NCBI GenBank assembly: GCA_008501635.1
Contig: QQUJ01000010.1
Span: 496,001-560,000 of the forward strand
From: Pseudomonadota bacterium
Lineage (GTDB): Bacteria > Pseudomonadota > Gammaproteobacteria > QQUJ01
DNA: 64,000 nucleotides
Direction: 5' to 3'
Part shown: positions 11,907 through 15,682 of the stretch, piece after piece
Layout: the number at the start of each line of letters is the position of its first letter
How positions within the stretch are numbered: the first letter of the stretch is position 1
Made by a program: the position numbers and the translations under genes
The notes under the pieces: model-generated
What the model saw: the letters and a program-made list of their open reading frames with translations, nothing else
What the model was told of the DNA's origin: nothing
The model's database searches: none

Positions 11907-11929
11907 CTGTGGTGTGGCAAATCACACAG
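11907..11929. repeat. Inverted repeat upstream of the nosZ FNR box
   Basis: GTGTG (11912-11916) and CACAC (11923-11927) form an inverted repeat 8 bp before the FNR-type box. It could be a second regulator site, but nothing further supports this. Confidence 0.3.
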
Positions 11930-11934
11930 CCAGC

Positions 11935-11948
11935 TTGATTTGAATCAA
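11935..11948 (+). promoter_or_regulatory. FNR/Anr/Dnr-type binding site upstream of nosZ
   Basis: TTGAT-TTGA-ATCAA is a perfect match to the consensus TTGAT-N4-ATCAA bound by oxygen- and NO-sensing CRP/FNR-family activators. It is centred 92 bp before the nosZ ATG at 12034. If it acts from -41.5, the start of transcription would be near 11983. No clear -10 hexamer is seen there; TTTACC at 11975 is a weak candidate. Confidence 0.8.
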
Positions 11949-12033: not shown

Positions 12034-14328
12034 ATGAAACTGCAATTGAAACGGACGGCATCGCTGCTGGCCGGCCTCGGTATGGGGCTGGCTGTCGCAT
12101 CGACTGCCTGGGGGCAGTCTACGCTCGATCAGGTCATGAAAGAGCGCGGGCTGACTCAAAAGGACCTGCTGGCCGCTGCGAAGACCTATACGCCGACTGG
12201 CAAGCATGATGACTACATCGTATTCAGCTCGGGCGGCCAGAGCGGTCAGGTGATCGTCTACGGTATTCCCTCGATGCGTATTTTGAAGTATATCGGCGTC
12301 TTTACGCCCGAACCGTGGCAGGGTTATGGCTTTGATGAGGAGTCCAAGGCGGTACTGGCGCAGGGCAGAATGCTCGGTAAGGACATTGCCTTTGGTGATA
12401 CCCACCACCCTGCGCTCTCCGAGACCAATGGTGACTACAATGGCCGCTGGCTGTTCATCAACGACAAGGCCAATCCGCGCCTGGCCGTGATCGATCTTCA
12501 CGACTTCGAGACCAAGCAGATCGTCGTCAATCCGATCATGAAGTCCGAGCATGGTGGCGCGTTCGTTACCCCCAATACCGAATACGTCATTGAAGCCAGC
12601 CAGTACGCCGGCCCGCTGGCCGAGGAGTTCGTACCGCTGGAGCAGTTCAATGAGAAGTACCGCGGCGCGGTGACGTATTGGAAGTTCAACAACGAGAAGG
12701 GCCGTATCGAGCCCGAGAATTCATTCTCGGTCGAGTTGCCCCCCTACAGCCAGGATCTCTCCGATGCCGGCAAAGGGCCATCCGACGGATGGTCGTTCAC
12801 CAACTCCTTCTGTTCCGAGCGCTACGTGGGTGGTATCGAGCGCGGTCGTCCGCCGTTCGAGGCGGGCTGCTCCTCCAAGGACACCGACTTCCTGCACGTG
12901 ATCAACTGGAAGAAGGGTGTCGAGGTGGTTGCCGCCGGCAAGGCCAAGAAGATCAACGGTCACGATGTGATCCCGATCGACGTGGCGGTGAAGGAGGGCA
13001 TGCTCTACCTGGTGCCCGAGCCGAAGAGCCCGCACGGCGTCGACGTCAACCCCGATGGCACGCATATCATCGTCTCGGGCAAGCTCGATAGCCATGCCTG
13101 GGTCTACAGCTTCGAGAAGATCATGGCCGCCGCCAAGGCCGGCAAGTTCGAGGGTAAGGATCCCTACGGGATTCCGATCATTGCGATGAAGGATGCACTG
13201 CACACGCAGGTCGCTGTCGGTCTGGGCCCGCTGCATACCCAGTACGACTCCAAAAAGTGCGTGGTCTACACCTCGATCTACGTCGACTCCATGGTCACCA
13301 AGTGGGATTACTGCGAAGGCAAGGTGCTGGATCAACTGCCCATTCATTACAATATCGGCCACTTGATGACCATGGAAGGCGATTCTGTCTCACCGGACGG
13401 CAAATATCTGGTGGCACTGAATAAGCTGGCCATCGACCGCTTCGCCCCGGTGGGCCCGCTGCATCCGCAGAACCACCAGCTGATCGACATCAGCGGCGAC
13501 AAGATGCAGCTGCTCTACGATATGCCGCTGCCGCTGGGCGAACCTCACTACGCTGTGGCCATCAAGGCTGACAAGCTGAAGCCCGTCGTGCGTTACAAGT
13601 CTGGCTGGAACAGCCGTACCGATGCGCGCTCGCCCTACCGTACCCGTGCCGGTCGTGAGAAGACCGAGACCACGCCGGGCAAGGTCGAGGTGTTCGGTAC
13701 CGTCATTCGTTCGCATATCACGCCGGAGATCATCGAGGCGCGAGAGGGTGACGAGATCATCATTCACCTGACCAACCTCGAGCGTGCACAGGACGAGACG
13801 CACGGCTTTGCATTGCGCGGCCAGAATGTCCAGCTCTCGCTCGAGCCTGGCAAGACGGCCACCGCGCGCTTCATCGCGGACAAGCCCGGCGTATTCCCCT
13901 ACTACTGCACCGAGTTCTGCTCGGCACTCCACCTGGAGATGCAGGGCTACCTGCTGGTCGCCCCCAAGGGCTACAAGGCCGAGAAGGTGATGATGCAGGA
14001 AGGTACGTCCTACACCCAAGTTGACTACGACAAGCAGGTGAAGACCAATATCGAGACCCAGGCGGTCATCGACCAGGTGGTCGGCTTCATCACCAGCCAC
14101 AACTATCAGGACTTCCCGACGGCCGTCGCCTTGGTGGAAGATGCCACCGATCAGCTCGGCTTTGCCGAGGAGGCCAAGAAGAAATCCGAGGCCGCTGCTG
14201 CCCAGCAGGATTGGCAGAATGCTATGCTCTGGGCCAACCAATGGTGGCAGTATCAGGTCAAGACCGCAGATCTCGGTTTGCGTGCCAAGACCCATCTAGA
14301 ACAGAATGGCGCCAAGAAAGTGAAGTAA
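12034..14328 (+). CDS. nosZ: Nitrous oxide reductase, clade II (Sec-exported)
   Basis: A 764-residue periplasmic multicopper enzyme that reduces N2O to N2. The leader MKLQLKRTASLLAGLGMGLA ends at STAWGQ and is of Sec type, with no twin-arginine motif; this and GDTHHPALSE (not DxHHxH) mark clade II. Seven candidate CuZ histidines are visible in DTHHP (two), SEHGG, SPHGVDV, GPLHTQYD, NIGHL and GEPHYA. The CuA site is CTEFCSALHLEM (C625, C629, H633, M636) with the upstream DETHGF His. About 100 residues follow CuA, including AAQQDWQNAMLWANQWW; this helical tail has no heme motif. ATG 12034 follows GAGAGGGGG. It heads the nos cluster. Confidence 0.97.
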   Translation: MKLQLKRTASLLAGLGMGLAVASTAWGQSTLDQVMKERGLTQKDLLAAAKTYTPTGKHDDYIVFSSGGQSGQVIVYGIPSMRILKYIGVFTPEPWQGYGFDEESKAVLAQGRMLGKDIAFGDTHHPALSETNGDYNGRWLFINDKANPRLAVIDLHDFETKQIVVNPIMKSEHGGAFVTPNTEYVIEASQYAGPLAEEFVPLEQFNEKYRGAVTYWKFNNEKGRIEPENSFSVELPPYSQDLSDAGKGPSDGWSFTNSFCSERYVGGIERGRPPFEAGCSSKDTDFLHVINWKKGVEVVAAGKAKKINGHDVIPIDVAVKEGMLYLVPEPKSPHGVDVNPDGTHIIVSGKLDSHAWVYSFEKIMAAAKAGKFEGKDPYGIPIIAMKDALHTQVAVGLGPLHTQYDSKKCVVYTSIYVDSMVTKWDYCEGKVLDQLPIHYNIGHLMTMEGDSVSPDGKYLVALNKLAIDRFAPVGPLHPQNHQLIDISGDKMQLLYDMPLPLGEPHYAVAIKADKLKPVVRYKSGWNSRTDARSPYRTRAGREKTETTPGKVEVFGTVIRSHITPEIIEAREGDEIIIHLTNLERAQDETHGFALRGQNVQLSLEPGKTATARFIADKPGVFPYYCTEFCSALHLEMQGYLLVAPKGYKAEKVMMQEGTSYTQVDYDKQVKTNIETQAVIDQVVGFITSHNYQDFPTAVALVEDATDQLGFAEEAKKKSEAAAAQQDWQNAMLWANQWWQYQVKTADLGLRAKTHLEQNGAKKVK

Positions 14329-14353: not shown

Positions 14354-14384
14354 GGGGGGGAGCGCTTTCGGCCCCCCCTTTTCT
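14354..14384 (+). terminator. Hairpin with T-run between nosZ and the first cytochrome gene
   Basis: G7 (14354-14360) pairs with C7 (14372-14378) around an 11-nt loop and is followed by TTTTCTATCT. It lies 26 bp after nosZ. It probably ends or attenuates transcription so that nosZ mRNA exceeds downstream message, or protects the nosZ 3' end. Confidence 0.6.
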
Positions 14385-14405: not shown

Positions 14406-14729
14406 ATGCGAAATTTCACTATCAAGGCCGTGGCCGCAGGCATGATCGCGGGCGCTTTGATGGCCAGCGGCAGCGCGATGGCCGATGGCGCCGCGTTGTA
14501 TAAGTCCAAGACCTGTATCGCCTGCCATGGCGCTGACGGCAAGGCGCCGATTCTGCCTATCTATCCCAAAATTTCGGGCCAGAACGAGCAGTATCTTGTC
14601 GCGCAGATGAAGGATATCAAGAGCGGTGCGCGTGCCAACGGTCAGTCCGCGGCCATGAAAGGTGTCATGCACCTGGTCAACGATGCCGAGATTGCCGAGA
14701 TTGCCAAATGGTTGGCCGGCGTGAAGTGA
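14406..14729 (+). CDS. nosC1: Periplasmic monoheme cytochrome c, NosC1-like
   Basis: A 107-residue exported c-type cytochrome. The signal peptide (MRNFTIKAVAAGMIAGALMA, cleavage after SAMA) precedes a single CIACH heme motif close to the mature N-terminus; Met residues in AAMKGVMH are candidate sixth ligands. Its size and place after nosZ match the small cytochromes of clade II nos clusters, which carry electrons to NosZ. ATG 14406 has GAGAGGAG upstream. An in-frame region upstream lies inside nosZ and was rejected. Confidence 0.85.
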   Translation: MRNFTIKAVAAGMIAGALMASGSAMADGAALYKSKTCIACHGADGKAPILPIYPKISGQNEQYLVAQMKDIKSGARANGQSAAMKGVMHLVNDAEIAEIAKWLAGVK

Positions 14730-14739
14730 TCTAGCTGAA

Positions 14740-14793
14740 AAAGGCGGGGTGGCTGAGCCTTGATGGGAATCAAGGTTCGGTCACCCCGCCTTT
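14740..14793 (+). terminator. Stem-loop containing an FNR box
   Basis: AAAGGCGGGGTG (14740-14751) pairs perfectly with CACCCCGCCTTT (14782-14793). Inside it a second stem, CCTTGAT pairing with ATCAAGG, has a GGGA loop. It lies 11 bp after nosC1 and could terminate transcription, although only TTTGTC follows. The inner stem is at the same time a perfect FNR-type palindrome (14760-14773). Confidence 0.65.
14760..14773 (+). promoter_or_regulatory. FNR/Anr/Dnr-type site within the nosC1-nosC2 terminator stem
   Basis: TTGAT-GGGA-ATCAA is a perfect consensus match. It is centred about 78 bp before the transcription start predicted from the promoter at 14810-14838, further than the usual -41.5 position. 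It may still activate from upstream, or be part of the hairpin only. Confidence 0.55.
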
Positions 14794-14809
14794 GTCATTA
14801 TAGGGCACA

Positions 14810-14838
14810 TTGATTCGTATATTATTAAGTACTAATAT
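14810..14838 (+). promoter_or_regulatory. Near-consensus sigma-70 promoter before nosC2
   Basis: TTGATT (14810-14815), exactly 17 nt, then TAATAT (14833-14838). The spacer is AT-rich in a GC-rich neighbourhood. The start of transcription would be about 14845, giving a leader of about 64 nt before ATG 14909. It suggests that the second cytochrome and downstream nos genes have their own promoter. Confidence 0.6.
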
Positions 14839-14908
14839 AACAGCCATTGATAGTGGGGACTTTGGTGGGCCGGAGAGGGCCTTTTTTGATTTGATGGAGG
14901 TTGCTGAG

Positions 14909-15625
14909 ATGTTGAAACGTGATTGGGTCATGACCGTGCTGGTCGCCGGCGGGCTGGCTTTGTCGGGTGCGAGTTGGGCGGCTTGGAACGAGGGTGGTGG
15001 CGAACAGGACGAAGCGCTGCACCTGCAAGCTGATATCGAAAACGGACTCGATGTCTACGAGGTCTGTTCCGCGTGCCACCTGCCCGAAGGCTGGGGTACC
15101 GAAGACGGCACTTTCCCACAGCTGGCGGGCCAGCACCGCGGCGTGCTGATCAAGCAGATGGCCGATATCCGCGCCGGTAATCGCGACAACCCGACCATGT
15201 ATCCTTTCGCGCTGCCCGAATCCATCGGCGATGCGCAGGCGCTGGCCGACGTGACCGAGTACATCCAGAAACTGAAGATGAACCCGGAAAACGGTAAAGG
15301 TCCGTGGAAGCCGGGTACGCCCGAGCATGCCAAGGGCGAGCAGCTCTACAAGGACAACTGCACCCGTTGCCACGGTGACAGGGGTGAAGGCATACCGGAC
15401 AAGTTCTATCCGCGCATCGAGGGTCAGCACTACAAGTACATGGTGCGCCAGTTCGAGTGGATCCGTGACGGCAAACGCCGCAATGCCAATCCGGACATGG
15501 TGAAGCAGATCAGTGAGTTCAGCGATGACGACATGAAGCAGGTGATCAACTATGTTTCCTGGATCCAGGTGCCCAAGGAAGATCTGGCGCCGTCGGCCAA
15601 CTGGAGAAATCCTGATTTCGACTAG
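14909..15625 (+). CDS. nosC2: Periplasmic diheme cytochrome c, NosC2-like
   Basis: A 238-residue exported protein with heme motifs CSACH and CTRCH, separated by about 100 residues, i.e. two class I cytochrome domains. The N-terminal MLKRDWVMTVLVAGGLALSG is the signal peptide or anchor. It is likely to pass electrons from the quinol side (NosG/NosH, or a bc1 complex) to NosZ or to NosC1. I chose ATG 14909 because GGAGG lies 8 nt upstream; a longer frame to 14810 would place the start inside the predicted promoter. A strong hairpin (15649-15682) separates it from nosB. Confidence 0.85.
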   Translation: MLKRDWVMTVLVAGGLALSGASWAAWNEGGGEQDEALHLQADIENGLDVYEVCSACHLPEGWGTEDGTFPQLAGQHRGVLIKQMADIRAGNRDNPTMYPFALPESIGDAQALADVTEYIQKLKMNPENGKGPWKPGTPEHAKGEQLYKDNCTRCHGDRGEGIPDKFYPRIEGQHYKYMVRQFEWIRDGKRRNANPDMVKQISEFSDDDMKQVINYVSWIQVPKEDLAPSANWRNPDFD

Positions 15626-15648: not shown

Positions 15649-15682
15649 GGTACTGCGGGGCGGAGCGGCGCCCCGCAGTACC
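15649..15682. repeat. Strong 13-bp hairpin between nosC2 and nosB
   Basis: GGTACTGCGGGGC (15649-15661) pairs perfectly with GCCCCGCAGTACC (15670-15682) across an 8-nt loop. No T-run follows. It could mark an mRNA processing or stabilising site or a Rho-assisted end. Confidence 0.5.

Follow-up and report, generated by a model that had tools for sequence, protein, structure and literature searches.

A predicted class II FNR-type promoter of nosC2 that overlaps a probable gene-end hairpin in a clade II nos cluster

In Escherichia coli, 19 of the 23 directly activated FNR promoters with a known transcription start carry the regulator's site at -41.5 ± 4, according to the section of PMC3688515 that deals with them. 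For clade II nitrous-oxide reductase (nos) clusters, a description is available for Nitrosophilus labii, where Crp/Fnr sites have been predicted upstream of nosZ and nosB; the sites reported lie 48-49 bases upstream of the napA, norE and nosB starts, whereas the one at nosZ coincides in part with the predicted start (PMC11539149). The N. labii cluster resembles the one considered here in being of clade II and in its predicted division into separate units with Crp/Fnr-type sites of their own (TTGA-N6-TCAA), whereas its gene order differs and the passages of the description concerned with these sites mention no terminator overlap (PMC11539149). Narrow phrase searches of the open-access literature yielded no paper, and no title among those listed, on an FNR site overlapping a terminator or hairpin.

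The locus analysed here belongs to an organism which we take to be of a different phylum from N. labii. It lies in a stretch of 64,000 nucleotides, referred to below as the window (G000:C10:496001-560000), within a 3.93-Mb assembly, and all coordinates without a prefix are positions in the window. We propose, with a probability of roughly 0.68, that positions 14740-14808 hold two overlapping elements, namely a class II FNR/DNR promoter for nosC2 and a hairpin that closes the nosZ-nosC1 message.

A profile search with NCBIfam models revealed a clade II nos cluster on the forward strand, beginning with nosZ, nosC1 and nosC2 and continuing with further nos genes. The first gene, nosZ (12034-14328), encodes a clade II (Sec-dependent) nitrous-oxide reductase (TIGR04246, 888.8 bits). 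It is followed by the monohaem cytochrome c gene nosC1 (14406-14729), a name taken from the original prediction, and by the dihaem cytochrome c gene that opens the downstream unit (14909-15625), for which we coined the name nosC2 by analogy. GGAGG at 14896-14900 precedes the nosC2 start codon at 14909, where the alignments of several relatives also begin. The other genes of the cluster encode NosD, NapG- and NapH-like ferredoxin proteins and an ABC ATPase, and one gene, membrane-protein-like by eye, matches no NCBIfam model.

Between nosC1 and nosC2 there is a perfect FNR box, TTGAT-GGGA-ATCAA, at 14760-14773 on the forward strand with its centre at 14766.5. Both the palindrome and its role as an FNR-type site for the downstream genes, lying within a hairpin that follows nosC1, had been proposed earlier; the palindrome is present as described and the promoter role receives strong backing from the comparative data given below. 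Perfect boxes number 15 in the 3.93-Mb assembly, where a pattern search for the reversed motif found none. One of them (G000:C10:456314-456327) is flanked on one side by the gene of a Crp/Fnr-family regulator and on the other by a divergent gene, and this regulator may join the circuit because the box adjoins its gene. A profile search gave 13 HTH_Crp_2 matches above cut-off in the genome, three of which were examined further. One of the proteins (L118) passes the curated Fnr cut-off of 228 bits with 271.8 bits and another (L119) falls narrowly under it with 216.1 bits; both show the motifs CxxC...C and ETxSR, and the third is a Crp/Fnr-family protein lacking N-terminal cysteines. Judged by these matches, the genome encodes FNR proteins.

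The regions upstream of nosC2 were compared among the best 80 of at least 580 nosC2 relatives, which are mostly gammaproteobacterial, each region running from the closest cytochrome gene upstream as far as nosC2. In the genome collection, the taxonomic order of the window's organism is represented by this genome alone, and the relatives compared are not close. This first set comprised 81 loci with the window included, of which four lacked an upstream cytochrome gene on the contig and eight had gaps shorter than 60 nt or otherwise unusable, leaving 69. Of 19 loci added later, four were repeats, two had no upstream cytochrome gene and one had no usable gap, which brings the enlarged set to 80 relatives. 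An FNR box with at most one mismatch occurs in 54 of the 69 regions, window included, against a mean of 0.8 and a maximum of 3 in 200 shuffles, and with at most two mismatches in 61 of the 69, against a mean of 8.9 and a maximum of 16. In the enlarged set the corresponding numbers are 61/80 and 70/80 relatives, to be read as counts of loci and not of independent events since clusters of similar species are included. No box within two mismatches was found in the other ten of the 80 (L034, L037, L048, L056, L072, L078, L079, L082, L097 and L103).

The spacing between the box and a -10 element is also conserved. A hexamer with A at its second and T at its sixth position lies 22 nt past the box in 57 of the 70 boxed relatives, the next best offset reaching 15/70, and thinning of similar sequences leaves this result at 39/51; TG precedes the hexamer, as in an extended -10 element, in 43 of the 70. 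In the window, the same spacing leads to TGT-CATTAT (14793-14801, forward strand), the hexamer occupying 14796-14801. When scored with a -10 matrix trained on 44 thinned relatives, the window being excluded, this is the top 9-mer of the nosC1-nosC2 intergenic region at 7.7 bits, a value reached by one in 2000 random 9-mers. The 22-nt gap places the centre of the box at -41.5 and predicts a start at about 14808, in disagreement with the start near 14845 that had originally been put forward. An FNR-type dyad, a -10 element at the spacing expected for -41.5 and a suitable regulator in the genome are thus all present, and the box with its -10 element can be assigned, on comparative sequence evidence, to the class II FNR/DNR-type promoters as a candidate for nosC2 that is ordinary in kind and well supported. 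An FNR-type promoter upstream of nosC2 appears to be strongly conserved in most of the relatives sampled.

Nine of the relatives (L029, L030, L038, L043, L050, L055, L069, L077 and L081) carry boxes of the form TTGAT-N4-CTCAAGTG upstream of nosC2, several of them preceded by CAC, and share a TGTTANNAT -10 block at the 22-nt offset. The palindrome of these boxes is extended by their flanks, perhaps because the regulator recognises a longer site.

A second perfect FNR box lies upstream of nosZ (11935-11948, forward strand), with TGG-CACCTT at the identical 22-nt spacing, the hexamer CACCTT being weak. By raw counts, a box with at most one mismatch is present upstream of nosZ in 30 of the 45 relatives with enough upstream sequence, and 25 of these 30 have a -10 element at 22 nt, the next offset reaching 6. 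The window's nosZ box is preceded by TGTGGCAAATCACACA at 11913-11928, which resembles what we assume to be the CRP site motif. Since a second FNR-type promoter seems to stand before nosC2 in most sampled relatives, nosZ would appear to belong to one anaerobic unit and the accessory genes to another, and for the window the best reading is likewise that nosZ-nosC1 and nosC2 onward form two such units.

The box of the nosC1-nosC2 region is at the same time the apex of a long hairpin (14740-14793, forward strand), which begins 10 nt past the nosC1 stop codon. Its arms, 14740-14764 and 14769-14793, form 25 contiguous pairs, and the 4-base spacer of the box makes up the loop. The stem was originally described as a 12-bp stem enclosing the box, correctly as to the enclosure and too short as to the length. 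From the outside inwards it consists of 12 Watson-Crick pairs, eight pairs of which three are G-U, and the five pairs of the box. No inverted repeat in the window is longer among those whose arms lie within 60 nt of each other, the runner-up among contiguous stems with a 4-base loop having 12 pairs, and the segment 14730-14806 folds at -52.9 kcal/mol, with a z-score of -9.7 against 200 shuffles. The DNA departs from a perfect palindrome at three positions, and each time the result is a G-U that remains paired in the RNA of the forward strand. This placement is a hint of selection on the RNA and not a proof, three positions being few. It had also been stated that the bases of the hairpin are those used by a bound FNR dimer; the letters are indeed shared, but the two need not compete directly, since FNR acts on the DNA duplex and the hairpin at the level of RNA. 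No known RNA family was found in the window at gathering score. The outer arm was considered as a repeat element and rejected, since beyond the two arms it recurs only as four matches with one mismatch.

As regards termination, the hairpin includes a stable GC-rich RNA stem of the kind found in intrinsic terminators (14743-14790), which folds at -44.1 kcal/mol on the forward strand versus -29.9 kcal/mol on the reverse strand. With TTTGTCATT following it, this GC stem reaches a terminator score of d = 28.8; if AAA and UUU are paired, little T-tract is left and d falls to -14.5. The formula used for d is the one we presume to be standard. The T-tract, TTTGTCATTA at 14791-14800 on the forward strand, is weak and overlaps the -10 element. 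The terminator call is uncertain because of this weakness, and we regard the hairpin as the probable transcript end of nosZ-nosC1. Of the 71 boxed intergenics, 12 have a terminator-like hairpin upstream of the box, several of these 12 coming from related species, compared with one to three per shuffle in five shuffles; in many cases the upstream message therefore seems to end ahead of the nosC2 promoter.

We infer from these features that FNR binding, a transcription start and termination probably all take place within 14740-14808. An FNR/DNR-type regulator bound at -41.5 would activate nosC2 and the genes that follow it from the extended -10 element, with no need for a good -35 element and with a start at about 14808. 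The 25-pair hairpin would end or protect the nosZ-nosC1 message, and the DNA of its 3' arm would supply most of the stretch from the box to the -10 element. Without oxygen, the FNR promoters before nosZ and before nosC2 would both fire, and the hairpin would stop polymerases arriving from nosZ-nosC1 from overrunning the nosC2 promoter, yielding an insulated pair of anaerobic units.

The strongest alternative, which we nevertheless consider rather improbable, retains the promoter half of this explanation and interprets the hairpin as a stabilising or processing structure, at which readthrough RNA is trimmed such that the ratio of nosZ-nosC1 to nosC2 is set, the FNR promoter providing a second start. 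The weak T-tract and the very great length of the stem agree with such a structure, as do the hairpins behind nosZ (14354-14378) and between nosC2 and the next gene (15649-15682), the latter a perfect 14-pair hairpin without a T-tract, but the GC stem followed by TTTGTCATT scores as a terminator and readthrough would have to cross a conserved promoter. The 15649-15682 hairpin implies that gene-end hairpins here need not all terminate, and with one such hairpin behind nosZ, one behind nosC1 and one behind nosC2, they may set the ratios of these three genes. A small terminator-like hairpin with a T-run is also present in the predicted nosC2 leader, just 5' of the ribosome site (14867-14888); matches of this type often arise by chance.

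The terminator-promoter arrangement that we prefer raises the question of whether the fusion of box and hairpin recurs elsewhere. Among the 71 boxed intergenics, the window alone has more than 13 contiguous enclosing pairs, and flank shuffles never reached 20. Enclosing stems of at least 11 pairs occur in 9 of the 71 against 4.2 expected, a mild excess at most, and a terminator-like enclosure of the box was seen in 4/71 against two to three in shuffles. Enclosure of the box as a general feature was rejected, since at least eight pairs are present in 43 of 61 loci, while 20 shuffles of the flanks gave 38 on average and 49 at most. In the window's own genome, the 14 remaining perfect boxes have stems of about ten centred pairs at most.

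A wider search in 369 gammaproteobacterial genomes with the pattern CCTTGAT-N4-ATCAAGG gave 39 sites in 35 genomes, all of which were examined. Two of the 39 sites have centred stems of 25 pairs, those of the window and of a locus in genome G316, and the remainder have at most 13. In the G316 locus (L146:1483-1536), a perfect FNR box is the apex of a hairpin of 25 pairs, itself perfect, between a gene for 158 amino acids and a co-directional multihaem cytochrome gene. Its three sister loci (L179-L181) carry TTGGT-N4-ATCAA with short, imperfect stems, and two further members of the G316 genus (L182 and L190) have no box within one mismatch. L146 was not counted as a second independent fusion, because neither the box nor the stem is conserved in the sister loci. 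A covariance model was trained on the window together with L146 in both orientations, sequences which therefore match it by construction; run with stricter filters at E ≤ 0.001 on the 369 genomes it found these two genomes (G000 and G316) and a weak match in G116, and nothing else, and in 60 of the 80 nosC2 loci of the first set it gave nothing below E 0.014. Both the demand of the pattern for CC...GG and the stricter filters of the model run favour hairpins like that of the window, and other fusions may be missed.

The G116 match (L150:1487-1532) is an extended palindrome around an FNR box with divergent genes on either side, and it was rejected as a gene-end fusion for that reason. The gene pair downstream of it looks like what we take to be norC-norB. 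Upstream of nosC2 in a Chromatiaceae MAG (L014), a perfect box is enclosed by an outer stem of 11 pairs, followed after five bases by T8; it falls short of the terminator criteria applied to the boxed intergenics and has a poor -10 element, and is possibly a weaker parallel. Independent, conserved instances of a terminator with an FNR box as its apex did not emerge from these searches, and the fusion of a gene-end hairpin with the nosC2 promoter is, as far as the compared sequences indicate, unusual and without comparative support.

These comparisons bear on a further explanation, which we consider unlikely, namely that the palindrome is a mutational accident in which template switching completed an FNR palindrome or quasi-palindrome, with no function beyond that of the promoter. 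The limit of 13 contiguous enclosing pairs in the other boxed intergenics would fit an accident, and the shorter, imperfect stems at the equivalent place in the three sister loci of L146 are what palindrome completion would give. The window's stem could share the origin of that of L146, which shows how fast such a palindrome can be perfected, perhaps through template switching. The hint of RNA selection in the three deviations, all of them G-U on the transcribed strand, speaks against an accident, and a position 10 nt past the stop codon suits a gene-end hairpin.

Within the preferred arrangement, the originally suggested coupling of transcript end and restart is possible, and a more far-reaching proposal can be made. 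It has been shown in single-molecule work that RNA polymerase can remain on the DNA after termination and restart at nearby promoters (PMC6978380, in its report of that result). A polymerase stopping in the release zone (14791-14800) would cover the next promoter, because the zone overlaps the -10 element at 14796-14801. The polymerase finishing nosZ-nosC1 might then stay on the nosC2 promoter beside bound FNR and restart there, and an FNR roadblock may aid termination in spite of the poor T-tract. We regard this hand-over as a speculation of low probability, suggested by the geometry; if true, the output of nosC2 would track the traffic through nosZ-nosC1.

The original prediction had assigned a strong promoter to TTGATT-N17-TAATAT (14810-14838, forward strand). 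The letters are there, matching 8 of 12 sigma-70 positions, and an equal match occurs in 74% of shuffles; the real intergenic region has four matches of this level against a shuffle mean of 1.4. Neither this site nor TGT-CATTAT was listed by a sigma-70 scan with a threshold of 9/12. The hexamer TAATAT is, at 6.0 bits, the second-best -10 candidate in the nosC1-nosC2 gap, and a minor start from it is possible, the site as a whole probably not being the main promoter. That the FNR box binds nothing and is a mere terminator apex, with TTGATT-N17-TAATAT driving nosC2 from a start near 14845, is very improbable, for despite the letters present, the rank of TAATAT and the AT-richness of the region, the hexamer pair is within chance and the box and its spacing are conserved in relatives without the long hairpin.

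Set beside known systems, the hairpin resembles intrinsic terminators in having a GC-rich stem just past a stop codon, with an A-tract before it and some T after it. It differs from them in its weak T-tract and in having an activator site as its apex, and its 25-pair stem is twice as long as that of the next hairpin with a 4-base loop in the window. Polymerase recycling, in the part of PMC6978380 that describes it, offers a route by which a polymerase that has ended one message may restart nearby, and in the window it is the geometry alone that suggests this. The fusion, compact and of natural origin, may serve as a template for two questions, namely whether polymerases restart at a promoter underlying the terminator immediately after termination there, and whether a bound activator aids termination. 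With the class II FNR promoters of E. coli, such as those of narGHJI, dmsABC, nirBDC and nrfABCDEFG, as PMC3688515 presents them, the predicted nosC2 promoter shares the TTGAT-N4-ATCAA site, a position at -41.5 judged by spacing and an anaerobic respiratory target; unlike in those promoters as presented there, the window's box is also the apex, and its spacer to the -10 element also the 3' arm, of a gene-end hairpin of 25 pairs.
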